32,510 nt of DNA from NCBI GenBank assembly GCA_030019025.1, contig JASEFR010000008.1, positions 16,901 through 49,410 of the forward strand. Reading direction: 5' to 3'. Every line of letters starts with the position of its first letter. Position 1 is the stretch's first letter. The notes under the pieces were generated by a model. It ran no database searches. It had not been told where the DNA came from and worked only from the letters and a program-made list of their open reading frames with translations. A program made the translations under genes and the position numbers. The stretch comes from a bacterium. Lineage in GTDB: Bacteria; Hydrothermota; Hydrothermia; UBA1063. Of this stretch, positions 3,319 through 18,282 are shown one piece after another.

Positions 3319-5508
<2,190 letters not shown>

Positions 5509-5512
<4 letters not shown>

Positions 5513-6339
5513 ACGAGGAACTCTGGAAAAAAGTTCTTTTGATTTTGGGTATTTTTTTTACAGCATTGTTTACATTAACGCCCTTTGTTTATATGATTAT
5601 AGTTAGTTTTGCTGAATCTGTAGATTTTCTTGGTAGAAGAACCAGTCTTGTTTTCACGTTTAAGAATTACTTAGAATTGCTTAGAAATCCTAATTTGCAT
5701 TTTTTGGACTACCTCCGAAACAGTGCTGTAGTCTCCGGTGTTAGTTCCTTTTTAACGGTTTTAATTGCAAGCTTTGCTGCGTATTCAATTACAAGGCTTC
5801 CCTTTCCCGGTAAGTCCTTTTTCCTTATGTTTGTGCTTGCATTTTCAATGTTCCCTCAGGTTAGTATAGTTGGATTCTTATTCAATTTGATGTCAAAACT
5901 TGGTCTTGTAAATACATATGTGGGGTTGATTTTGCCTTATACTGCCTGGATTATGCCTCTTTCCCTCTGGATACTTGTAAGTTATTTTTCTGGTATACCT
6001 AAGGAAATAGACAAGCAGGCCACTATCGATGGATGCACAGTGTGGGAAACCCTTTTTAAAGTGATGTGGCCTCTCGCAAGGCCTGGAATATTTACCACTT
6101 TTATCCTTGCATTTATTTTTGCGTTTAACGAATTTATGTTTGCACTTCTTTTGACTACTGACTTCAGGGCAAGAACTGTCCCTGTAGGGATTGCACTCTT
6201 TCAGGGTCTCCATGGTGAGATACCGTGGGGCACAATAATGGCTGCTTCTACGTTGACCACCTTGCCAATTGTGATTTTAGTCATTGTTTTTCAGAAGAAT
6301 ATAATTCAAGGATTAACAAGGGGAGCTGTCAAAGGATGA
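5509..6339 (+). CDS. Sugar ABC transporter permease, MalG-like
   Basis: A 276-residue inner-membrane permease of the carbohydrate uptake (CUT1) type. There are six hydrophobic spans, and the EAA loop begins at about residue 165 (KEIDKQATIDGCTVWE). The C-terminus contains PVGIALFQGLHGEIPWG and ends QGLTRGAVKG, both typical of MalG-like proteins. Translation starts at a GTG that overlaps the previous stop codon (GTGA), with GGGGAG about 9 bases upstream. It pairs with the MalF-like permease to form the translocation pore. Its own stop codon overlaps the ATG of the ATPase gene, so the four transporter genes are tightly coupled. Confidence 0.92.
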
Positions 6340-7427
6340 GGCTAAGATTGGTGAATCTTTGTAAAAAGTTTGTGTCAAAAAGGCGTGTTGTTGTGGCGGT
6401 AGATGGTGTATCTTTAGAAGTTAATGATGGAGAGTTCTTCGTTCTATTGGGTCCAAGCGGGTGTGGCAAGTCAACTATTTTGAATTTAGTTGCGGGGCTT
6501 GAAAAGCCTTCAGGTGGTGAGATTTATTTTGATGAGGAATTGGTAGCGTCCTTTGAAAAGAGAGTATTTATTTCGCCGCGAGACCGCAACGTGGCGATGG
6601 TCTTCCAAAGCTATGCATTATATCCTCACCTTAATGTTTATGATAATATTGCTTTTCCCTTACGGATCAGCAAGCAGAAAGAAGACATAATAGAAAAATC
6701 TGTTCGTGAGGTAGCCGAGCTTTTAAACATTGAAGATTTGTTGTTTGCTTTTCCAGCAGAACTTTCCGGCGGTCAGAGGCAGAGAGTTGCTATTGCAAGA
6801 GCGATAGTAAGGCGACCAAGAATCTTTCTTTTAGATGAACCCCTTTCAAATTTGGACGCGAAGCTGAGAGTATCAATGCGTTCTGAGCTTAAATCCCTGC
6901 AACGGAGGCTCAGAGTAACTACTCTGTATGTGACTCATGATCAAATTGAGGCGATGACCTTGGGTGATAGAATTGCGGTTTTAAGAGCAGGGAAAATTGA
7001 ACAGATAGGAACCTCGGAAGAATTATATGCCTCTCCTCGTAACACTTTTGTGGCGGCGTTTATTGGGACACCTCCGATGAATATAGTCGAGACAGTTCTG
7101 TACTTCGAGCAGGGTTCCTATTACGTTGACTTTGCAGGTAATAGACTGGCAGTACCTCCAGAAAAGGTTCCGGTTGATGTTTTAAAACCCGGTTCAAAGG
7201 TTTTCTTTGGAATAAGGCCTGAAAACGTCAATATCGTGAGTTCTCCCGAAAAGGCGCATTTTTCGGGTGTAGCTAAGAGTATCGAAAATCTGGGAAAAGA
7301 AAAACTTGTTCGAGTGGGAATTGATTCGATTGAGATTACTCTCACTACTTCGGAAAGTGATTTGCGGGAGGGAGATAGGATTCACCTTCAATTTGACCTT
7401 AAGCGGATTCATTTATTCAACGAGTGA
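6336..7427 (+). CDS. Sugar ABC transporter ATP-binding protein, MalK/UgpC-like
   Basis: A 363-residue cytoplasmic ATPase. The ATG at 6336 overlaps the permease stop (ATGA) and gives a standard MalK length. An open frame extending back to 6225 lies inside the permease gene and is not used. Motifs: Walker A GPSGCGKST (39-47), Q-loop Gln91, signature LSGGQ (143-147), Walker B IFLLDE (163-168) and switch His201. The C-terminal 130 residues match the OB/TOBE regulatory region of MalK/UgpC proteins, with FFGIRPENV. The presence of a dedicated ATPase completes a self-sufficient importer. It may still serve other permeases, as MalK/MsmX-type proteins often do. Confidence 0.93.
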   Translation: MRLRLVNLCKKFVSKRRVVVAVDGVSLEVNDGEFFVLLGPSGCGKSTILNLVAGLEKPSGGEIYFDEELVASFEKRVFISPRDRNVAMVFQSYALYPHLNVYDNIAFPLRISKQKEDIIEKSVREVAELLNIEDLLFAFPAELSGGQRQRVAIARAIVRRPRIFLLDEPLSNLDAKLRVSMRSELKSLQRRLRVTTLYVTHDQIEAMTLGDRIAVLRAGKIEQIGTSEELYASPRNTFVAAFIGTPPMNIVETVLYFEQGSYYVDFAGNRLAVPPEKVPVDVLKPGSKVFFGIRPENVNIVSSPEKAHFSGVAKSIENLGKEKLVRVGIDSIEITLTTSESDLREGDRIHLQFDLKRIHLFNE

Positions 7428-7491
7428 AGAAAAGGCTCCAAATGTTGCATGATTAGTGATTTTTGTCGTTAATTTATAGGGAGGTGATTGG

Positions 7492-8544
7492 ATGGATGGA
7501 CAAAATGTTGTAATTTTAGTTGTTATAGTTTTGATGTTATGCCTTGCCGGTATTTTAATTGACATTGTGATTTTGAGGAAACTCGTTGCCAGGGCAGTTA
7601 AAAAGCGTCTGGAAACCCAGAGAATTTTTTATAGTTCAATTAGGTTCTGGATTGTAGCCTGGTCAATTTTGCTGTGTGGTTATTTTCTTTTAGATATTTT
7701 CCAGGTGGATTCTTCATTGTTACACATAGTGGGAAAAGTCCTCAGTATTGCCGCGATTCTTTCAGTTTCATTTATTCTTGCAAATATTGGCGCGAAGTTA
7801 CTGGATCTGAGACTTGAAAAGATTAGCGGACGTTTGCCCGGAGTGAGTTTAATTTCAGGAACTTTTAGAGTGATTATTATAATACTGGGATTACTTACCG
7901 CCCTTCACCGCATGGGAATTTCTATTGTACCTATTTTGACAGGACTTGGTGTGGGAGGCGTTGCTATTGCGCTCGCACTTCAAGAGACTCTTACCAATTT
8001 TATTGCCGGTATAAATATTTTGTTTTCAGGAGTAATAAGAGTTGGAGATTATGTTAAACTTGATACGGGAGAGGAAGGCTTTGTGGAGGACATCAGTTGG
8101 AGAAGCACGCTGATTCGGGAACTATCCAACAATTTAATAGTTATTCCGAATACTAAAATATCTAATGCGATTGTCAAGAACTTCAGTCTGCCCCAGGAGG
8201 AACTTTCTGTAATTATTCCGGTAACTGTGTCTTATAACAGTGACCTCGAAAGGGTTGAGAGAATCACAATTGAAGTTGCTAAGGAAGTTCTCAATGAGGT
8301 TGAAGGCGGGGTAAGAAACTTTGAACCCTTTATAAGGTATCATACCTTTGGAGATAATGGTATAATTTTCAGTGTAATCCTTCGTGTAAATCATTATACT
8401 GATCAATATCTTGTTAAGCATGAGTTTATAAAGCGATTGCATAAAAGATATGATAGTGAAGGTATCGAGATTCCATTTCCACAGAAAGTGGTGCATTTTG
8501 GTAGTGGTTTTAAGTTTTTTAAGAATGAAAAAGGTGAGATATGA
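7492..8544 (+). CDS. MscS-family mechanosensitive ion channel
   Basis: A 350-residue inner-membrane protein. Hydrophobic segments lie near residues 5-28, 52-72, 78-104 and 120-145, followed by the pore helix LTGLGVGGVAIALALQETLT with the Gly/Ala pattern of MscS TM3. The cytoplasmic part follows with VGDYVKLDTGEEGFVEDISW and NLIVIPNTKISNAIVKNFS, both diagnostic for the MscS beta domain. Channels of this family open on membrane tension and release solutes during hypo-osmotic shock. A strong GGGAGGTGA precedes the ATG. The stop codon overlaps the start of the trehalose synthase/phosphatase gene (ATGA), so channel and compatible-solute enzyme are made from one message. It sits 64 bases after the ABC transporter genes, where no convincing separate promoter was found. 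Confidence 0.92.
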   Translation: MDGQNVVILVVIVLMLCLAGILIDIVILRKLVARAVKKRLETQRIFYSSIRFWIVAWSILLCGYFLLDIFQVDSSLLHIVGKVLSIAAILSVSFILANIGAKLLDLRLEKISGRLPGVSLISGTFRVIIIILGLLTALHRMGISIVPILTGLGVGGVAIALALQETLTNFIAGINILFSGVIRVGDYVKLDTGEEGFVEDISWRSTLIRELSNNLIVIPNTKISNAIVKNFSLPQEELSVIIPVTVSYNSDLERVERITIEVAKEVLNEVEGGVRNFEPFIRYHTFGDNGIIFSVILRVNHYTDQYLVKHEFIKRLHKRYDSEGIEIPFPQKVVHFGSGFKFFKNEKGEI

Positions 8545-10748
8545 GACTCTTAATTGTGTCAAATAGGTTACCCTTCTCAATTAAGGAAGAAGGGGGACAA
8601 TATGTTTTAGAGCCGTCCCCGGGTGGGCTTGTCTCGGGGTTAAGTTCTTATTTGGATTCACTGAGAGGAACATCGGTTAAAAGAAAACCTTACGTCTGGA
8701 TAGGCTGGCCGGGAGCATACCTGAAAAAGGAGCTAAGAGAAGAACTCAAGAATAAGGCACTTTCCGAACACAATGCTTATCCTGTTTTCGTGCAGGAAAA
8801 ATTAATGGAGAAATTTTACCTCGGCTTTTGTAACAAAACCATATGGCCTCTTTTCCACTACTTTACCACTTATGTTTCTTTTGATGAGGATTTCTGGGAT
8901 TCATACAAGAGAGTTAATGAACTTTTCTGTGATGCTGTAATGGAAGTTGTTAAACCTGGAGATGTCATCTGGATACATGATTACCATCTGATGTTGCTGC
9001 CTAAAATGCTGCGGTTAAGGTTGGGAGATAAATATCCCATTGGTTTCTTCCTTCACATTCCTTTCCCGGCTTATGATGTTTATTCGATGCTTCCTAAGAA
9101 ATGGAGAGAAGAGATTCTCACGGGTCTTATTGGTGCGGACCTCTTAGGATTTCATACTTTTGACTATACACAACATTTTCTCAAGAGTGTTTTAAGAATT
9201 CTTGGACTTGAGAATAGTATGGGAACAATTAATGTTGACGGAAGAGTGGTAAAAGTAGATACCTTTCCCATGGGAATTGACTTCAAAAAGTATTACAAGG
9301 CTCGCTTTAAGCCAATGGTAAAAAGGGAGATCAACAAATTGAGTAAAAGTTTTAAAGACTTGAAAATCATCCTCTCAATTGATCGCCTGGATTATACAAA
9401 GGGAGTGGCAAATCGTTTAAAAGCTTACGAGTTATTTCTTGAAAAATATCCCGAATGGAGAGGAAAAGTTGTTCTTATGATGGTGGTAGTGCCTTCGAGG
9501 GTAGGAGTAGAACACTATCAGATAATGAAAAGGCAAATTGATGAACTTACCGGAAAAATAAATGGTAGGTTTGGAACTATCGATTGGCAACCAATTATTT
9601 ACCAATATAGATATCTTAACTTTGAACCGCTTTCTGCATTGTATTACATGAGTGATGTTGCTCTCATCACTCCTCTAAGAGACGGGATGAATCTTGTGTC
9701 GAAAGAGTACGTTGCTGCGAAAGGAGACAGTGTAGGCGTTCTTATCTTGAGTGAGATGGCAGGAGCTGCGAGGGAATTGCAGGAAGCAATAGTTGTTAAC
9801 CCAAATTCTTTGAAAGAAATGGTTGATGCAATATCACAGGCATTGACAATGGATGATGTTGAAAAGCGCGAGAGAATGGAAAGGATGCAGCAAAGAATCC
9901 GCCGATATAATGTTACAAGGTGGGCGACAGATTTCGTCGAGACTCTGAAAGAGATAAAAAAGTCAGGCAAAACTGCTGAAGCAAGGTTCCTTACAATACA
10001 TCCAAAGAATCAAATTTACATTTCCTATAGAAAGGCAAGAAATAGGATTCTTTTCCTGGATTATGATGGCACCCTTGTTCCTTTTTCTAAGAATCCTAAG
10101 CTTGCAAAGCCCGACAAAGATTTGCTTGATTTAATCAGAGCTCTTGCAAATCAAGAAGGGACAGAAGTAGTAATAGTGAGTGGAAGGGATAAAAATACCC
10201 TCGAATACTGGTTCAGAGAAATTCCCATTAATTTAATTGCAGAGCATGGTGTTTGGGTCAAGAAGCCATATGAAGATTGGGCTTTGATAAAGCCTCTGGA
10301 CAATTCCTGGAAAGAAAGCATTAGAAATATTATGGAAATCTATTCGGACCGTTTGCCTGGCTCCTTTGTCGAAGAGAAGGAGTACTCAGTAGCATGGCAT
10401 TACAGGGGGGCGGAGCCAGAACGTGCTGCGCATCTCGCAAATGAGCTCTTTACTTATCTTGTGGATTATACTTCAAACGTGGATCTGCAGGTTCTGCAGG
10501 GCAACAAATTGATAGAGGTTAGATGTTCAGGAGTGGATAAAGGAAGCGCCTGTCTTCACTTTCTCTCACAGAAAGATTATAATTTTATTATGGGAATTGG
10601 TGATGACTGGACGGATGAGGATATGTTTAAAGCCCTTCCTCAAGAAGCATTGACTATCAAAGTTGGAATAGGTCCAACACTTGCGAAGTACGTGCTCAAA
10701 AATTACCTTGAAGTTCGCGCAATGTTAAGAGGTTTTTTGACCCTATGA
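8541..10748 (+). CDS. otsAB: Bifunctional trehalose-6-phosphate synthase/phosphatase (OtsA-OtsB fusion)
   Basis: A 735-residue cytoplasmic fusion enzyme. Residues 1 to about 475 are a GT20 trehalose-6-phosphate synthase, with NRLPFS near the N-terminus, SPGGLVSGL, VWIHDYHLMLLP, GFFLHIPFPAYD, DRLDYTKGV and DGMNLVSKEYVA. Residues about 495-730 are a HAD-type trehalose-6-phosphate phosphatase with catalytic DYDGT (507-511), VIVSGRD, AEHGVW and MGIGDDWTDEDMF. Together they turn UDP- (or ADP-) glucose plus glucose 6-phosphate into trehalose. No key residue appears lost in either half. It overlaps both neighbours by 4 bases. Such fusions are known in several bacterial lineages and in eukaryotes, so the architecture alone is not novel. 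Confidence 0.95.
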   Translation: MRLLIVSNRLPFSIKEEGGQYVLEPSPGGLVSGLSSYLDSLRGTSVKRKPYVWIGWPGAYLKKELREELKNKALSEHNAYPVFVQEKLMEKFYLGFCNKTIWPLFHYFTTYVSFDEDFWDSYKRVNELFCDAVMEVVKPGDVIWIHDYHLMLLPKMLRLRLGDKYPIGFFLHIPFPAYDVYSMLPKKWREEILTGLIGADLLGFHTFDYTQHFLKSVLRILGLENSMGTINVDGRVVKVDTFPMGIDFKKYYKARFKPMVKREINKLSKSFKDLKIILSIDRLDYTKGVANRLKAYELFLEKYPEWRGKVVLMMVVVPSRVGVEHYQIMKRQIDELTGKINGRFGTIDWQPIIYQYRYLNFEPLSALYYMSDVALITPLRDGMNLVSKEYVAAKGDSVGVLILSEMAGAARELQEAIVVNPNSLKEMVDAISQALTMDDVEKRERMERMQQRIRRYNVTRWATDFVETLKEIKKSGKTAEARFLTIHPKNQIYISYRKARNRILFLDYDGTLVPFSKNPKLAKPDKDLLDLIRALANQEGTEVVIVSGRDKNTLEYWFREIPINLIAEHGVWVKKPYEDWALIKPLDNSWKESIRNIMEIYSDRLPGSFVEEKEYSVAWHYRGAEPERAAHLANELFTYLVDYTSNVDLQVLQGNKLIEVRCSGVDKGSACLHFLSQKDYNFIMGIGDDWTDEDMFKALPQEALTIKVGIGPTLAKYVLKNYLEVRAMLRGFLTL

Positions 10749-11392
10749 AACCATTCGTATTTTATACCAAATTAGACCTTGTTTATCTCACGAATAGGAA
10801 GGCGCGTAACATTATAGAGCTCCTTGAAGGGATAAAAGAAGCACCAGGATCTGTTATTTATCACCATACCCATCGCTTTCTTCAACAACATATCAATTTG
10901 TCTCCCGAGCCTCCAAATGATTTTGCTTACTGGACTGTTCATGCTTTACAAGAGCCGGTTCTGGGTGAGAAATTGGCTGCAATAGACATAATTGATTTTA
11001 AAACAATTGCAGAGTTGAAGGAAAAGATTATTCAAACTATCGAAGAATACCTCTTAACTAAACCAGTTATTAGAAATGTTCCTCCGGGGATGGAATTCCA
11101 TTTTATGAAATCCAAAAGTTTTGTACTTAATACAGGCTATGTTGCAAATAATTTAAAGGAATTTTGTGAAATTTTGAGAATAGTTAATATAAATTCTCTC
11201 TATCTTCATGTGTTTGAATCGAGGATGAGGCTGGGCAAGATGAATGACGACTTTTCCATCTGGTTGAGGTCTATTGGTGAGGAAAAGGCAGCAGAGGAAA
11301 TCTCAAGGCTTGATCCTTACACATATACGCTTGAAGGATTAAGGTCTAAAATTTTAAGAATTTTGGAGAGGAGAATAAATGAGAAGTATTGA
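10745..11392 (+). CDS. Unknown protein between trehalose genes, possibly DUF5752 type
   Basis: A 215-residue protein without signal peptide or membrane segment. It is mostly alpha-helical by composition. It carries SVIYHHTHRFLQQH near residue 40, with clustered histidines, and PPNDFAYWTVHAL near residue 58. The length, these motifs and the position next to a TreT-like gene resemble what I recall of the DUF5752 family, whose function is unknown; this is memory, not a search. The start overlaps the phosphatase stop by 4 bases, and the 3' end overlaps the TreT-like gene by 14 bases. It is therefore co-translated with trehalose enzymes and may regulate or assist them. The His cluster could bind a metal or phosphate. 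No reaction can be assigned. Confidence 0.8.
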   Translation: MKPFVFYTKLDLVYLTNRKARNIIELLEGIKEAPGSVIYHHTHRFLQQHINLSPEPPNDFAYWTVHALQEPVLGEKLAAIDIIDFKTIAELKEKIIQTIEEYLLTKPVIRNVPPGMEFHFMKSKSFVLNTGYVANNLKEFCEILRIVNINSLYLHVFESRMRLGKMNDDFSIWLRSIGEEKAAEEISRLDPYTYTLEGLRSKILRILERRINEKY

Positions 11393-12605
11393 GGATTACG
11401 AACCTTTTGTCGGACGTTTTGTGATTCAAGAGTTGTTAGAGTTGGGTAAAAAACTTTCAGGCATCACTGTACAAAATATAAACTCGACTGCTGTAGGAGG
11501 TGGAGTTGCTGAAATCCTTAGTCGGATGGTTCCTTTATTCAGACAGCTTGGAATTGACGCAAGGTGGGACGTTATTAAGGGGGGAGAGAAGTTCTTCAAG
11601 ATAACAAAAAAGTTTCACAATGCCTTACACGGAGTACCGGTACAGATTGAGGAATCTGAATTTGAGCATTTTCTTGCTGTTAATGAGATGAATGCTCAGG
11701 AGATAGAATTTGTCGGAGATATAATTTTTGTTCATGATCCTCAACCTATAGCTCTTATTGAAAAGAAAGAAGAGATTGGAAAACGCTGGCTGTGGAGATG
11801 TCATATTGATTTTTCTAAGCCTCAGGAATATGTTTGGTTGTTTTTGAAGACCTACATTGAAAAATACGATGCCGCAATTTTTTCTGCACCTGCATTCGCG
11901 AGGGAGCTTAGCATACCGCAAATTTTAATTTCTCCATCGATAGATCCCCTTAGCGATAAAAATAGAGAGCTTACCGAGGAAGAAATTAATTCGGTTATTG
12001 AAAGGTTTCAAATAGATAGGAGTAGGCCGATAGTCACACAAATTTCAAGGTTTGATTATTTAAAGGATCCCCTTGGCGTTATAGAAGCTTACAGATTGGC
12101 CAAGAAACATGTTGATTGTCAGCTCGTTCTTGCAGGAGGTCCTGCAAGTGACGATCCCGAGGGGGAAGCAGTGTTAAACGAAGTTAGGGAAGCGGCTGAA
12201 GCTGATCCCGATATACATATCTTGCTTCTTCCTCCTGGGAGTGACATTGAAATTAATGCTTTACAGAGAGCCTCTACGGTTGTTCTTCAGAAGTCTCTAA
12301 AAGAGGGCTTTGGATTAACGGTTGCTGAGGCATTGTGGAAAGAGAAACCGGTAATTGCGAGCGCCGTGGGAGGGATTCCACTTCAGATAACCCATAAGTA
12401 TTCAGGAATACTCACTCATACAATTGAAGGAACGGCATTCTGGATAAAGCAGCTAATTAACGAGCCGGAATTTGCTAAAAGACTCGGTAAAAATGGCAAA
12501 GAGCATATAAAAAACAATTTTCTCATTACAAGACATCTGAGAGATTATATGTTAACTTTTCTATCGGTGATATTAGAAAAAGACACTGATGTGATTTATC
12601 TATAA
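11379..12605 (+). CDS. treT: Trehalose glycosyltransferring synthase, TreT-like (GT4)
   Basis: A 408-residue GT-B glycosyltransferase. The N-terminal half has STAVGGGVAEIL (36-47), DARWDVI, KKFHNALHG and WRCHIDFS, as in TreT and trehalose phosphorylase-like enzymes. The C-terminal half has the donor site with QISRFDYLKDPLG and the E-x7-E pair Glu309/Glu317 in KEGFGLTVAEALW. TreT makes trehalose from NDP-glucose and glucose and can run in reverse, releasing glucose from trehalose imported by a neighbouring transporter (known from Thermococcus). That fits the ABC transporter upstream. It overlaps the unknown gene by 14 bases. Members of this clade may instead be phosphorylases, so the exact reaction is inferred. 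Confidence 0.88.
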   Translation: MRSIEDYEPFVGRFVIQELLELGKKLSGITVQNINSTAVGGGVAEILSRMVPLFRQLGIDARWDVIKGGEKFFKITKKFHNALHGVPVQIEESEFEHFLAVNEMNAQEIEFVGDIIFVHDPQPIALIEKKEEIGKRWLWRCHIDFSKPQEYVWLFLKTYIEKYDAAIFSAPAFARELSIPQILISPSIDPLSDKNRELTEEEINSVIERFQIDRSRPIVTQISRFDYLKDPLGVIEAYRLAKKHVDCQLVLAGGPASDDPEGEAVLNEVREAAEADPDIHILLLPPGSDIEINALQRASTVVLQKSLKEGFGLTVAEALWKEKPVIASAVGGIPLQITHKYSGILTHTIEGTAFWIKQLINEPEFAKRLGKNGKEHIKNNFLITRHLRDYMLTFLSVILEKDTDVIYL

Positions 12606-12817: not shown

Positions 12818-14224
12818 ATGTCAGTGCTGTTATTAATTTTATCCTTTCCTATAGTGTTAAATGGTTATTTTGAGGGGGAGTATCTGGCCCAAAAGTCAAG
12901 GGTTCCGGTAAACTGGGATATGTGGAATCCTAAGAATTACTTTGAAATGAAATTTTCTGTGAACCCATCGCCGGGGCTAAATGGGTTTTTCTCCCTCTCA
13001 GCACTCTCAAATGCCAACGGAATGCGGTTTTTTATGAACCAGGGGCATCTTTCTTACAGGACATCTAACACTGAATTTGCGATTTTTTCAAGGGAGGATA
13101 GATTCTGGATATCAAGCCCACTACTTTTTCTTGTAAATACCGACAGGGTAAAGGATGATGCCTGGGGTCCGAAAGCTGAAGGTATGAGATTTGATCTATG
13201 GGAATGGAAAGGATTTTACGCCACGGGTATTGCTTCTAAATTCAGAACGTGGGATGGAGAGGCATATCTTGCTTCCTTGACAAAGAGATTTGGAGAGAGA
13301 TTTGAGATTGGGACTATTTACTTAAAGAAAGATTGGAGGGGATCTGGAAATTCCTTTAATAGCATCTATTCTTTAAATGGAAAGACACACATAAAAGGCC
13401 CCCTCAACTTACGGTTTGAAGTTGCAAGAAGTATCCATCCCTCTCAACTTACCCCCCAAAAGAGCGATGATTACGCCTTAGAACTGGAATTTAGGAGGAT
13501 AAGGCTTAAGAATCTATCCATTGCATGGAGTTTCTTCAATTACGGTATTGATTTCATAGACGAGTTTTCCAATAAGTTTAATTTAAACTTTGACAGGGAG
13601 TTTGATAGAAGAGGTATTTACGGGGAGTTTATCTATCTCGTTCCTTATAAAGCGGTTAATCTGATATACAAAACTCGTTACTGGGAGTCGAGATTTGACG
13701 AAACATATCCCGGGTTCCTGCTACCTCACAAATACAATAAATGGTGGAATTACGGTGAGGTATACATCGAGTATTACGGAGGCGTCTCTTCTAAGTTCTA
13801 CATAGAATCTCTTAAAGATACATCACAGACCTGGAATCACCTCTTTTTTGAGATTGGTGGGGAAAACAATCTAATGAAGCTGCGTTTACAGTATAAAATT
13901 ATGGATTTTGGAATTAATCGTGATGGTCAGTCGGTTTATTATTCTATTGGTGAGAGGAACTTGATAGGCGCTGAGTTGAGGGTTAACATAACCCAGAGCC
14001 TCTTTTTCTATGGCAGGGCTGCGGTTGGAATGGGGGTTGGTCGTTCTTGGGAGAGTCTTTTTCTGCAGTTAGGATATAGGGGGATCAAAAATACTGAAAT
14101 TTTCTTAGAATATGGGGAACCCGGACATACTGATGGAGATTTGGTAAATGACTGGGATTTTTCAAACAACCCCTACCTCAGGACAGAGGATAGGGTAAAG
14201 TTACTTGTAAAATATTGGTTCTGA
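12818..14224 (+). CDS. Predicted outer-membrane beta-barrel protein, unknown
   Basis: A 468-residue exported protein not assignable to a named family. A short hydrophobic leader (MSVLLLILSFPIVL) precedes a long series of alternating polar/hydrophobic, aromatic-rich strands such as YGEVYIEYYG and SLFFYGRAAVGMG. The final residue is Phe (VKYWF), the usual C-terminal signature of outer-membrane barrels. The leader lacks the normal positive charges. An in-frame stop at 12803 rules out a longer start, so ATG 12818 is the first choice. No ribosome binding site is visible. It heads a cluster of carbohydrate-binding envelope genes and ends 15 bases before the next one. It may be a porin or a surface glycan protein; no catalytic motif is visible. 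Confidence 0.8.
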   Translation: MSVLLLILSFPIVLNGYFEGEYLAQKSRVPVNWDMWNPKNYFEMKFSVNPSPGLNGFFSLSALSNANGMRFFMNQGHLSYRTSNTEFAIFSREDRFWISSPLLFLVNTDRVKDDAWGPKAEGMRFDLWEWKGFYATGIASKFRTWDGEAYLASLTKRFGERFEIGTIYLKKDWRGSGNSFNSIYSLNGKTHIKGPLNLRFEVARSIHPSQLTPQKSDDYALELEFRRIRLKNLSIAWSFFNYGIDFIDEFSNKFNLNFDREFDRRGIYGEFIYLVPYKAVNLIYKTRYWESRFDETYPGFLLPHKYNKWWNYGEVYIEYYGGVSSKFYIESLKDTSQTWNHLFFEIGGENNLMKLRLQYKIMDFGINRDGQSVYYSIGERNLIGAELRVNITQSLFFYGRAAVGMGVGRSWESLFLQLGYRGIKNTEIFLEYGEPGHTDGDLVNDWDFSNNPYLRTEDRVKLLVKYWF

Positions 14225-14239
14225 AAAAGGAGTGTTAAT

Positions 14240-16078
14240 ATGCAAAACTTTATAATCCTTTCCCTTATTTTTCAAGGAGTCAGTTCAACCCCTCAAGGGG
14301 TAAAGTTTGAATATTACAATCCCCAGGCAAAAGCCGTGTACTTAGCTGGTGATTTCAATAACTGGTCTACCACTTCCCATCCTATGAGGAGAGAAAGTGA
14401 TGGTACTTTCTGGATTGTTGTGAAGCTGGCACCAGGTAAGTATGAATACAAGTTTGTTGTAGATGGTCAATGGACTGCAGACCCAGATAACCCTGTTACT
14501 GTTGGGGTTTATGGCAATTCTCTCGTGCGTGTTGGAGAAAATTATGCTGTATTACCTCCTGAAATGGCAACTAATACACCTGTTAGCTCAATTGTAAACT
14601 TTAATATCGATGCTCGTGGCTACTTAAAAGCAGATAAAGATTCAATTGAGGGAGGCAAGGCAGGCTATAGAGTTTTTGATTACATGCAGGATGTTAAAAT
14701 TGATCTGGATGCAAACCTGGAAGATAAAGCCGATCTATGGGTGAGGATAAGGTATAACACAAACACCGATCGGGAGCAGCAGACCCAATTGATTCCATTG
14801 AAGTTTGAACGAGGATTTTTCACTTTGAAAGGTGGAACTTTCAACTTTTATGCCTTTTATAACGCGCACAAGATTGCTGGCCCTGATCCATTTTCTTTGC
14901 TGAGAGAGGTAGGAGAGTTTCGCCGTGACTTTGGCGATGGAGAGCAGGGCGTCGTTTTAAATTTAAACAAATTTCTCATCTTTGATAATACGTATCTTGC
15001 TTATTCCAATAACATTCTTCAGGATAGAGACCTATTTTATTCAAATATAGGCAAGAATTTGGGTAAGTTGAATCTTGGGATAGTCTATCGTGGCCAGAGA
15101 GGACTGGAAAAGCTTTACAGGGTTCCTTCTCCCGATAGCCTAAAATCTAATGATACACTACTGTATTTCAATACCTATGAAAACGAAAATCTTTATGGCG
15201 GGTATTTGACTTTTGATGCGAAGAGATTTCTGCTCACTGCGGGTGGATTAATTGGGAACAGGGTACTTAACGCTGGTGAAAAGTATTCTGGAGATACACC
15301 ATATCCCGTTCATTTGAGCTGGCAGAAGTCCAAGATTATAAAAGGTTTATTCTCTATTAAGGGATTTACGGGCAAATGGATAAATTCCGCATGGGTTAAT
15401 TATGAAAAACATTATTATGATAAACTCTTTGTGAGAGGTGGGAGCCAGCTTTTTAAGTACTGGCGTTTTGGTTATAGCAATTCTTACAATGGGTATTTGG
15501 GCTTTAATTTCAGATATACTATTTTGAAAACCGATTCCTTTATGAATTGGAAGTACCTTTTTGAAGACCTGGAAAATCAGAGACTCGATTATGGTGAATT
15601 TCCGCTAATTTCCTATCCTCATTATCTCACTTTGAACCCCTATGTAAAGTGGAGATTTAAAAACCTTGGTCTAAGGTATGAATTAAAGTGGAATGCGTAC
15701 GCTATTAACCAGAAACCTTACACCTTGGAAAATCTTTTCCACATTGATTTGAAGATCTGGAAGCCGATATTGACCTATGAGCTAAGAACCTACACTGTAA
15801 AGAGTTCCCTTTTTGGACTTGAAAATACCTATGTTGACCACTTTGCTGAAATTGCCTATCCAATAAGTAAAAGTGCCATGGTGTCTCTGAATTATGGTTA
15901 TTTGCCATGGAATCTTGAAGATGAGTATTTTGCGAGGAGAGAATATTTGATAGAGCAAGGAGTTGATTACTCTTTGCTTGTCAACAATTTTAGGGGACTT
16001 GGTACTTTCTTAGACCTTGCGGAAACTTCTTTGTCAAAGGAAAGGGGTATTCAGTTATGGTTAAAAATAGCCTTTTAG
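14240..16078 (+). CDS. Glycogen-binding-domain/outer-membrane beta-barrel fusion protein
   Basis: A 612-residue exported protein. After a short hydrophobic leader, residues about 18-105 form an AMPK-type glycogen-binding (CBM48-like, E-set) domain, recognisable from AVYLAGDFNNWS, TFWIVVKLAPGKYEYKFVVDG and the WTADPDNP turn. The remaining roughly 500 residues are aromatic, strand-forming segments ending in Phe (WLKIAF), as in outer-membrane barrels. AAGGAG lies 7 bases before the ATG. The E-set domain normally binds alpha-1,4-glucan or packs against glucan-active domains in cytosolic enzymes. Here it precedes a predicted barrel, so it could hold a glucan at the surface or periplasmic mouth. 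The 3' end overlaps the next gene by 22 bases. The domain call is good; the role is inferred. Confidence 0.82.
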   Translation: MQNFIILSLIFQGVSSTPQGVKFEYYNPQAKAVYLAGDFNNWSTTSHPMRRESDGTFWIVVKLAPGKYEYKFVVDGQWTADPDNPVTVGVYGNSLVRVGENYAVLPPEMATNTPVSSIVNFNIDARGYLKADKDSIEGGKAGYRVFDYMQDVKIDLDANLEDKADLWVRIRYNTNTDREQQTQLIPLKFERGFFTLKGGTFNFYAFYNAHKIAGPDPFSLLREVGEFRRDFGDGEQGVVLNLNKFLIFDNTYLAYSNNILQDRDLFYSNIGKNLGKLNLGIVYRGQRGLEKLYRVPSPDSLKSNDTLLYFNTYENENLYGGYLTFDAKRFLLTAGGLIGNRVLNAGEKYSGDTPYPVHLSWQKSKIIKGLFSIKGFTGKWINSAWVNYEKHYYDKLFVRGGSQLFKYWRFGYSNSYNGYLGFNFRYTILKTDSFMNWKYLFEDLENQRLDYGEFPLISYPHYLTLNPYVKWRFKNLGLRYELKWNAYAINQKPYTLENLFHIDLKIWKPILTYELRTYTVKSSLFGLENTYVDHFAEIAYPISKSAMVSLNYGYLPWNLEDEYFARREYLIEQGVDYSLLVNNFRGLGTFLDLAETSLSKERGIQLWLKIAF

Positions 16079-16458
16079 CATTTATTTTGCTTGCAAGTGG
16101 TTGTGTGGTTCTGAGTCAAATTAAGCCGAGAGTACCTGCACCATATAGAACTCCTGAAGGGGTTGTTTTCCAATTTTATGCTCCCTCTGCTATGTATGTC
16201 AATCTGGCTGGTGACTTCAACCGCTGGTGCGGAACTCAGGATGGCCCTTTTAATCCAAACATCGGCAGGATGTATGATGATGGCACAAACGGTGATAAGA
16301 AAGGGGGTGATGGAATTTGGACTATAGTGGTTCCGCTGAAACCGGGAACTTATCAGTACAAGTATGTCGTGAATGGAACCAGCTGGTATCTCGACCCTTC
16401 CAATCCTGAGACGGTTCAATCTGGGCCCTATATAAATTCTCTTTTGAGAGTAGAATGA
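16057..16458 (+). CDS. Small glycogen-binding-domain lipoprotein
   Basis: A 133-residue lipoprotein with a lipobox ending at Cys16 (LASGC). Nearly all of the mature part is one AMPK-type glycogen-binding domain: MYVNLAGDFNRWC, then GIWTIVVPLKPGTYQYKYVVNG and YLDPSNPE. It is a clear relative of the N-terminal domain of the preceding barrel protein, so one probably arose by duplication. Between the first strands it has an insertion rich in Asp, Gly and Asn (MYDDGTNGDKKGGDG) that could bind calcium. The start lies inside the preceding gene, with an AAAGG-rich stretch upstream, and the stop overlaps the next gene by 4 bases. It likely acts as a membrane-anchored glucan-binding subunit. Confidence 0.85.
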   Translation: MVKNSLLAFILLASGCVVLSQIKPRVPAPYRTPEGVVFQFYAPSAMYVNLAGDFNRWCGTQDGPFNPNIGRMYDDGTNGDKKGGDGIWTIVVPLKPGTYQYKYVVNGTSWYLDPSNPETVQSGPYINSLLRVE

Positions 16459-16829
16459 AAAAGACGGTGATAAGGATTGTAGCTGTTTTTGCTTTTCTTC
16501 TTCAGGTTGTGTTGTTGATTTACTCGCTCATAAATTTTAAGGGTGGCGTGGAAGAGAATGTTCATTTTACTTTTTTGAGAATTACTTTACTGATAGGTAG
16601 TGCGGTTATGGTCATTATGACAAGGTACTTTCTAAGATTCATCAGTATTATGAAGAGTTCGAAAAGTACTTTATTCGTCCAAATTATTTCTCTATTGCCC
16701 GCTATAGTAATTCCTGCCGGAGGATTTGTCTTTGCGTACAGAATGCGGTCGGGCTCTGAATACATCCTATTTTTTGTGATAGGACTTTATCACCTCGTAA
16801 GATATTATCCTTTGCTGGAAAGAATTTGA
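16455..16829 (+). CDS. Small membrane protein with four predicted helices, unknown
   Basis: A 124-residue hydrophobic protein with segments near residues 8-27, 41-62, 74-94 and 101-118 and basic residues between them. I do not recognise the family. Its ATG overlaps the stop of the glycogen-binding lipoprotein gene (ATGA), which argues that it is really translated and belongs to the cluster. It could anchor or help assemble the neighbouring exported proteins, but nothing in the sequence shows this. Histidine and tyrosine near the C-terminus (GLYHLVRYYPLLERI) are unremarkable. Confidence 0.7.
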   Translation: MKKTVIRIVAVFAFLLQVVLLIYSLINFKGGVEENVHFTFLRITLLIGSAVMVIMTRYFLRFISIMKSSKSTLFVQIISLLPAIVIPAGGFVFAYRMRSGSEYILFFVIGLYHLVRYYPLLERI

Positions 16830-16896
16830 TGGGAGTTTTTTAATGCCAATTTTGTGGAGGTATTTTAAAAAGTTGGAAAAATTTAAGGAGGTATTT

Positions 16897-18282
16897 ATGA
16901 AGAGGCTTTTGCCTTTAGTGATTTTGTTTTTTCTCTTTTCCTGCGCAAGGGAGGAAGGTGAACCCTTGGTGAATCCTCCCGGGCAGGCTTATAGAACGCA
17001 GTACAATTCTATGCAGGTGGTTGGGGATTTTCAGGGATGGAACCTGAACGACTTTGATAATACTAAAATGACACTGGTAGCCGATTACCAGTGGGAGAAA
17101 ATTGTTTATTTCAATGCTCCTCAGGACAGTATCAGATTCAAGTTCGTAGCCAATAGAGATTGGAACTATGCCTTTGGGACCCAGGGTGCCGATACTGGGC
17201 TTTCTGGTTATGCTGAGCCTAATTGTAACGGACTTGGTGATCATATAACGGCTGGTCCTTTAAGACAGGCAGGTTACTGGAAATTTGAATTTAATGAGAA
17301 AACTTTAAGATACCAGATCTCTTTGGTTTCTACTCCTCAGGGCAGAATTTATGGCGTTGTAGCCTTTGCGGATGATACAGTGCCTCCTTATCCAGAAGCG
17401 ACGGTTCGGGTTTATAGGGATACTTTGCAGGTTGCGATGGTTAAAAGTGATACGCTGGATGGTAGTTATGAGGTAAATAACCTTGATGATGGAACATACA
17501 AGCTCTTTTTCCAGGCTACTGGTTACGACCCCGAGTCACTCATCGTCACAATTTCAGGATGGAATTCTGTTAATGCCGACACCGTAGTCTTAAATCCTGC
17601 GACTATAGGTGAGTATGCCTTTGCAGATGGTCCTTTCGTTAGTATAACGGTGGATGGAGATTTAAGTGACTGGCCATCGGTGGCTGTTATGGATACCCTT
17701 GGAGACAGCCCTTGGGGTCTCTCTGGTGACCTCGGTGCCCTTTACGTTGGGCATGATGCGGAGAATCTTTATTTAGGTCTTCATTATGCTGCGAGAGATA
17801 ACGCGGTTATAATTTATATCAATGTAAATAACAGCGATCCTACGGATGGAACCCTTGATGGAGACTCCATTGACTGGTTCCCGAGAAATTTCCAGTTTAC
17901 GGATTCTACACCGGCAGAATTTATAATTGCCAAGTGGGCATCTGCAACTCCTTATGGGCCCTATCTAAGACATATTATATCTTCTACAGCTACACAAGAA
18001 ATTCCTGCATCCGATTATTCTATAACGGATGTGCCGGATACTTCCGATCCTACAGGTAAGACAAGGTTTATGGAAGTAAAGATTCCATATGATGTGTTAT
18101 ATAACCTTGGTCAAAACAGGGTAGTGCCCTATGCAAAGATAAGAGTTGTGGCTGTTGTAGCTGGTGGTGATCACTGGAATGGGCCAGAAAGCTTGCCAGA
18201 AAATAGTGGTACTGACGGTGCTGGAAATCCAACTTTATTGAGTAATATGTATGTTGAGGAGATAGATAGAGACGGCCAATGA
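16897..18282 (+). CDS. Multidomain carbohydrate-binding lipoprotein
   Basis: A 461-residue lipoprotein starting at ATG 16897, chosen because AAGGAGG lies 5 bases before it and a lipobox (LFSC, Cys16) follows. The open frame reaches back to 16843 without support. Residues about 25-135 resemble an E-set/X25-type starch-binding fold (MQVVGDFQGWNLNDFD, FKFVANRDWNYAFG). Residues about 145-230 match a carboxypeptidase-regulatory-like beta-sandwich (SYEVNNLDDGTYKLFF). Residues about 240-460 look like a CBM9/DOMON-type domain (VDGDLSDWPSV, ENLYLGLHY, then acidic loops). No glycosidase catalytic motif is visible, so it appears to be a binding or scaffold protein at the membrane. It ends the envelope cluster and is followed by a strong hairpin. 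Confidence 0.8.
   Translation: MKRLLPLVILFFLFSCAREEGEPLVNPPGQAYRTQYNSMQVVGDFQGWNLNDFDNTKMTLVADYQWEKIVYFNAPQDSIRFKFVANRDWNYAFGTQGADTGLSGYAEPNCNGLGDHITAGPLRQAGYWKFEFNEKTLRYQISLVSTPQGRIYGVVAFADDTVPPYPEATVRVYRDTLQVAMVKSDTLDGSYEVNNLDDGTYKLFFQATGYDPESLIVTISGWNSVNADTVVLNPATIGEYAFADGPFVSITVDGDLSDWPSVAVMDTLGDSPWGLSGDLGALYVGHDAENLYLGLHYAARDNAVIIYINVNNSDPTDGTLDGDSIDWFPRNFQFTDSTPAEFIIAKWASATPYGPYLRHIISSTATQEIPASDYSITDVPDTSDPTGKTRFMEVKIPYDVLYNLGQNRVVPYAKIRVVAVVAGGDHWNGPESLPENSGTDGAGNPTLLSNMYVEEIDRDGQ

Follow-up and report, generated by a model that had tools for sequence, protein, structure and literature searches.

The DNA analysed here (the window, 32,510 nucleotides) comes from a 1.73 Mb, 99% complete genome assigned to candidate division WOR-3 (Hydrothermota), a little-known phylum of mostly uncultured, heat-loving bacteria with hardly any cultured members. 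Between positions 12818 and 18282 the window carries five consecutive open reading frames on the + strand (12818–14224, 14240–16078, 16057–16458, 16455–16829 and 16843–18282), which we refer to as g1 to g5. The true start of g5 is at 16897 and not at 16843; from there the protein begins MKRLLPL and continues to an FSC lipobox, and the starts of its relatives agree. The successive genes are then arranged with a 15-nt spacer, a 22-nt overlap, a 4-nt overlap and a 67-nt gap, a spacing that is operon-like, and scans of the sequence for promoters and terminators returned no more sites than in shuffled sequence. The sequence-only reading had described the five as envelope genes encoding a barrel, a fusion of a carbohydrate-binding module (CBM) to a barrel, a CBM lipoprotein, a membrane protein and a multidomain lipoprotein, and the open reading frames, Pfam matches and AlphaFold2 models all agree with that description.

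The first gene, g1 (12818–14224, +), encodes a 468-residue protein with an N-terminal signal peptide and a C-terminal phenylalanine. It has no family match in Pfam or NCBIfam, and a g1 profile finds no sequence match in the PDB. AlphaFold2, using 16 sequences, predicts a barrel of about 24 strands (pLDDT 80.8, pTM 0.73), and Foldseek aligns the model with other large barrels, the best being the FimD usher, Cir and BtuB at a TM-score of about 0.5; these matches support a large barrel, as modelled, and not homology. The signal peptide, predicted barrel fold and C-terminal aromatic residue clearly identify g1 as an outer-membrane barrel protein. No plug is found in g1, and neither g1 nor g2 contains a TonB domain in Pfam or NCBIfam. 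Conservation of the strand residues is greater on the predicted inward face (0.58) than on the outward face (0.37), although the inner face was taken as the less hydrophobic of the two and the comparison is therefore partly circular. Near-invariant aromatic residues are distributed similarly, with 11 pointing inward and two outward, together with 12 near-invariant acidic residues that point inward.

The second gene, g2 (14240–16078, +), encodes a 612-residue protein in which a signal peptide is followed by a domain of the CBM48/AMPK type (residues ~15–98; 14282–14533), a linker, a barrel of about 22 strands and a C-terminal phenylalanine. The AlphaFold2 model shows the CBM fold and then the strands, and g2 thereby also has the features of an outer-membrane barrel, with a model of lower confidence (pLDDT 70, pTM 0.59). 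Barrels are therefore predicted for both proteins, as had been proposed, and the contrary outcome, a lack of barrels, was not seen. The CBM match in Pfam is strong (CBM48/AMPK1_CBM, 5e-17; 62 bits against a curated AMPK1_CBM cut-off of 26.8), the domain aligns with the glycogen-binding domain of AMPK beta-1 with an E value of 7e-19, and its modelled structure can be laid over AMPK CBMs with an rmsd of ~2 Å over 79 residues. The AMPK residues W100, K126, W133 and N150, which we take to be those that touch the glucan, correspond to W42, K71, W78 and N93 of g2, the W78 assignment being taken from the sequence alignment. These positions are retained as W, K, W or Y, and N in 11/11 g2 sequences, and no other part of the protein is as conserved as the CBM (mean pairwise identity 0.61, compared with 0.33 for the barrel). 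The g2 barrel itself has no functional relatives in any library searched. Barrels of this kind usually have both termini on the inner side, and the N-terminal CBM would therefore be expected in the periplasm.

The next three genes encode smaller envelope proteins. By their sequences, g3 and g5 are lipoproteins with starch-type binding domains. The g3 protein (16057–16458, +) has an LASGC lipobox and a single CBM48-like domain (Pfam 7e-10; 39.5 bits against a CBM_48 cut-off of 22.4), in which W57, K102, W110 and N127 are invariant in 14/14 sequences; the glycogen-binding folds of g2 and g3 thus both retain the glucan-contact surface on which the original proposal depended. The g4 product (16455–16829, +) is a small hydrophobic membrane protein of about three to four helices with no Pfam match; its sequence evolves rapidly, and some species lack it. 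The g5 lipoprotein (16897–18282, +) has three domains, a SusE/F-like or CBM48-like N-terminal domain, a CarboxypepD_reg-like middle domain with a weak Pfam match, and a CBM9/DOMON-like C-terminal domain, the two end domains being named from weak matches and sequence pattern. A SusF_SusE match is weak (0.003) and present in one of 13 g5 sequences, with none in the g5 of the window, and W48, K82 and W89 are invariant in all 13.

We found g1 in 21/147 genomes of the phylum. A scan of one genome per species over 84,980 species gave at least 15 loci, labelled WOR-3 or Hydrothermota except for two labelled merely as bacteria, and whole-genome searches place the g1 carriers of families f25 and f34 in the same phylum. 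The order g1-g2-g3-(g4)-g5 is retained, although the flanking genes differ, in families f1, f2 and f7, so that the cluster is not a chance arrangement, and the gene order thus proved to be kept in relatives. In four further families the set is rearranged. In f25, g1-g2-g3 lie together near a contig end, and in f6, g2-g3 are located away from g1. In the f4 operon, genes for a binding protein, the DOMON protein and a small protein, in that order, precede g1, which is followed by the gene for a secreted 1030-residue protein and then by g2; a GH57 gene lies ~5 kb past g2, and g3-g5 are elsewhere. In f34 the same three genes precede g1 and g2, up to a contig edge or to where the examined stretch stops. 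Since the order is kept in f1, f2 and f7 and regrouped in f4, f34, f25 and f6, we regard g1-g5 as one unit that has since been rearranged. In one genome (G015) g3-g5 have genes for MalQ (GH77) and for a branching-enzyme-type GH13 enzyme nearby.

Several other neighbours were noted. In f6, the strand opposite g2-g3 encodes a MalG-type permease ~1.3 kb away from them (L068:10803-11606), and g1 is followed by a gene for a large WD40-type propeller protein and not by g2 (L067:8912-10708; L066:1-1449). V-type ATPase-like genes flank the gene for the secreted enzyme in the present genome and g1 in f2 and G033 (L103:189-4246; L062:4521-6446; L066:3463-5373), a weak hint that the secreted protein and g1 once had a common location.

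The genome also encodes an exported GH57 enzyme of 1152 residues, on a different contig from the cluster, with three AMPK1_CBM domains, up to 49% identical to the CBM of g2, and a Glucodextran_C domain. We compared 60 genomes, 19 with g1 and 41 without. Versions of this enzyme whose catalytic domain shares at least 50% identity with it are present in 15/19 genomes with g1 and 0/41 others; relatives of the secreted 1030-residue GH57-like protein occur in 17/19 and 0/41; and the CBM9/DOMON-like partner is in 17/19 and 0/41, one weak partial match in G045 being set aside. Some of the missing cases are genomes that are 80–85% complete, and the counts are inflated by shared ancestry; by families, co-occurrence of the three with g1 is 5–6 of 6 compared with 0 of 19. 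The pattern holds in six families, one of which (f25) is outside the class.

The 1030-residue protein matches CBM21/CBM53 weakly, ends in a type IX sorting tail and has one weak GH57 match (E 0.007 in one of four members), and a profile-profile comparison with GH57 gave no match; its designation as GH57-like reflects the weak Pfam match and motifs read by eye. The DOMON protein likewise has a sorting tail of the type IX secretion system (T9SS) type. SprA-like proteins, mostly of ~1800 residues, are present in 58/60 WOR-3 genomes, and a type IX-like secretion system is thus probably general in WOR-3. In the present genome two overlapping frames of 868 and 205 residues (L103:4713-7930) together make up the gene for the secreted GH57-like protein, which in G003 is a single open reading frame of 1086 residues; the split could be either an assembly error or a broken gene.

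Upstream of g1, the + strand encodes a trehalose/maltose ABC importer (3319–7427), with a TMBP-type binding protein, two permeases identified by sequence and position, and an ATPase, followed by an MscS channel, an OtsA-OtsB fusion, a DUF5752 protein and TreT (7492–12605). The binding protein (3319–4632) is close to the TMBP of Thermococcus litoralis (590 bits to 1eu8). The TMBP-like importer and TreT adjoin g1 in three species of one genus only, and G003, whose g1 is 92% identical, lacks both the TMBP-type protein and TreT. TreT shows no association with g1 (4/18 compared with 3/23). The binding protein encoded beside g1 in f4 and f34 is 43–53% identical to a protein on contig C27 of the present genome, compared with 22–26% to that of the window. 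The C27 protein is related to maltose-, acarbose-, cyclodextrin- and maltodextrin-binding proteins of known structure, and its gene is followed by one for a DOMON protein, as in f4 and f34; no homologue of the small gene that separates DOMON from g1 in those families was detectable beside the C27 pair. From the gene content of G003 and the orthology of the operon-linked binding protein to C27, we rejected the window importer as the partner of the cluster, and the 3319–12605 block is probably a neighbour and not part of the system. The sequence-only reading had proposed a non-Sus system that captures alpha-glucans and passes them to this adjacent importer. The contact residues and the linkage and co-occurrence of g1 with exported GH57-type enzymes and a maltodextrin-type binding protein support the capture, whereas the same G003 and C27 observations do not support the hand-over to the adjacent importer. 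Within the genus, the 3319–12605 block is present in some species and absent from others, and the closeness of the window TMBP to that of the archaeon T. litoralis suggests lateral transfer.

The explanation that we favour, with a probability of roughly 0.6, is that g1-g5 form the outer-membrane part of a WOR-3-specific system for acquisition of alpha-1,4/1,6-glucans (glycogen, starch or maltodextrin). In the scheme that we infer, extracellular glucan would be cut by secreted enzymes: the exported GH57, which carries Glucodextran_C and three CBM48 domains, and the GH57-like protein, which carries a type IX sorting domain. The lipoproteins g3 and g5 would bind glucan chains and hold them at the envelope. 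Products of oligosaccharide size would be transported through g1, with its many near-invariant aromatic and acidic residues on the predicted inner wall, to be caught by the CBM of g2 facing the periplasm, and a maltodextrin-type binding protein, the C27 orthologue, would hand them to an inner-membrane importer. A more specific form, in which WOR-3 evolved independently of Sus an import machine that pairs the plugless 24-strand g1 with g2, as barrel and periplasmic CBM, and is fed by surface enzymes placed by the T9SS, is a tentative proposal that we consider less likely than not.

Other explanations have to account for the same genes. The barrels could serve to export or anchor a polysaccharide that the cell makes itself, either an alpha-glucan or another envelope polymer, with the CBM proteins guiding or holding it at the surface. 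FimD and PapC ushers, which are 24-strand export barrels, are among the closest fold matches of g1, and a periplasmic-side CBM would suit the outward hand-over of a chain; however, the linked and co-occurring genes encode exported enzymes that cut glucan and a binding protein for sugar import, and not glycosyltransferases or polymerases, and we consider export unlikely. Another view of the sorting tails on the co-occurring secreted and DOMON proteins is that the cluster is a type IX secretion accessory that holds or processes secreted proteins, its CBM-like domains being protein-binding E-set modules, and the CBM48 repeats of the GH57 enzyme do match the NCBIfam T9SS_plug model below its cut-off. 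With SprA_N in 58/60 genomes and g1 in 19, though, type IX secretion cannot explain the narrow spread of g1, and the glucan-contact residues are invariant, which makes this role quite improbable.

The conservation of those residues also bears on a proposal in which both barrels act as general porins and the CBM48-type domains are structural modules, inherited and without any function towards glucan. E-set domains frequently have a structural role, and neither g1 nor the barrel of g2 has functional relatives in the libraries searched; against this, the contact residues are all retained across distant families and g1 has a phyletic link to glucan-active enzymes, and we give the porin proposal little credence. 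Position in the window would instead assign g1-g5 to the adjacent trehalose/maltose module, with a role in trehalose uptake or osmoregulation, as they directly follow the TMBP-type importer, MscS, OtsAB and TreT both here and in two sister species. This assignment is highly improbable and already largely refuted by gene content, since G003 lacks TMBP and TreT, other families retain g1-g5 without them, and the association between TreT and g1 is absent.

Returning to alpha-glucan acquisition, the lack of a recognisable sugar-porin relative of g1 in Pfam, NCBIfam or PDB sequences is a point against it. What is understood of large-glucan uptake across the outer membrane comes mainly from LamB and TonB-dependent SusCD, and if our explanation is true, the cluster constitutes a third outer-membrane architecture for glucan uptake, plugless and found in a phylum of which very few members have been cultured, and predicts alpha-glucan scavenging as a WOR-3 lifestyle. 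The nearest contrary fact is that sy37, the only WOR-3 isolate described, does not grow on starch or maltose (PMC12285271), a comparison by growth and not by g1 content. A published survey of WOR-3 genomes mentions neither starch nor glycogen (PMC12542636), and the cluster is not described in the open-access literature on SusC-independent starch systems and WOR-3 starch use, which is not proof of absence.

The closest known counterparts are the SusCDEFG systems and polysaccharide utilization loci (PULs) of Bacteroides, which cluster an outer-membrane barrel, glucan-binding lipoproteins, an exported glucan-cutting enzyme and a periplasmic and inner-membrane hand-over. The WOR-3 genes would share this outline in their predicted barrels, putative glucan-binding lipoproteins and exported GH57, the last encoded on another contig here and ~5 kb past g2 in f4. 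However, the WOR-3 cluster lacks a SusC-type TonB-dependent barrel and SusD, in whose place are a 24-strand barrel with no plug and a protein that joins CBM48 to a barrel; its enzyme is GH57, where that of Sus is the GH13 enzyme SusG, and the WOR-3 enzymes are mostly unlinked. As the sequence-only reading had noted, Pfam and NCBIfam searches find neither a TonB plug nor a SusD motif in the cluster; SusD (PF07980) is absent from the whole genome, and three TonB plug matches lie elsewhere, outside the cluster. In outline the cluster would work like Sus, yet it is not a Sus system, since neither SusD nor a SusC within the cluster, both of them defining features, was found. The g5 protein resembles the SusE/SusF lipoproteins (PF16411) as a lipoprotein with an N-terminal starch-type domain, but continues into CarboxypepD_reg-like and CBM9/DOMON-like domains. 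LamB maltoporin is comparable to g1 in its expected function and, according to the model, in a lumen with aromatic and charged residues, but has 18 strands in place of the ~24 predicted, and g1 has no Pfam or PDB sequence match. The trehalose/maltose ABC transporter of T. litoralis, whose TMBP is closely related to the 3319–4632 protein, is the counterpart of a block that we judge to be outside the cluster. The domains of g2 and g3 share sequence, fold and contact residues with the AMPK beta glycogen-binding domain and CBM48 (PF16561, PF02922), the difference being that in WOR-3 the domain is fused to an outer-membrane barrel in g2 and is a stand-alone lipoprotein in g3.
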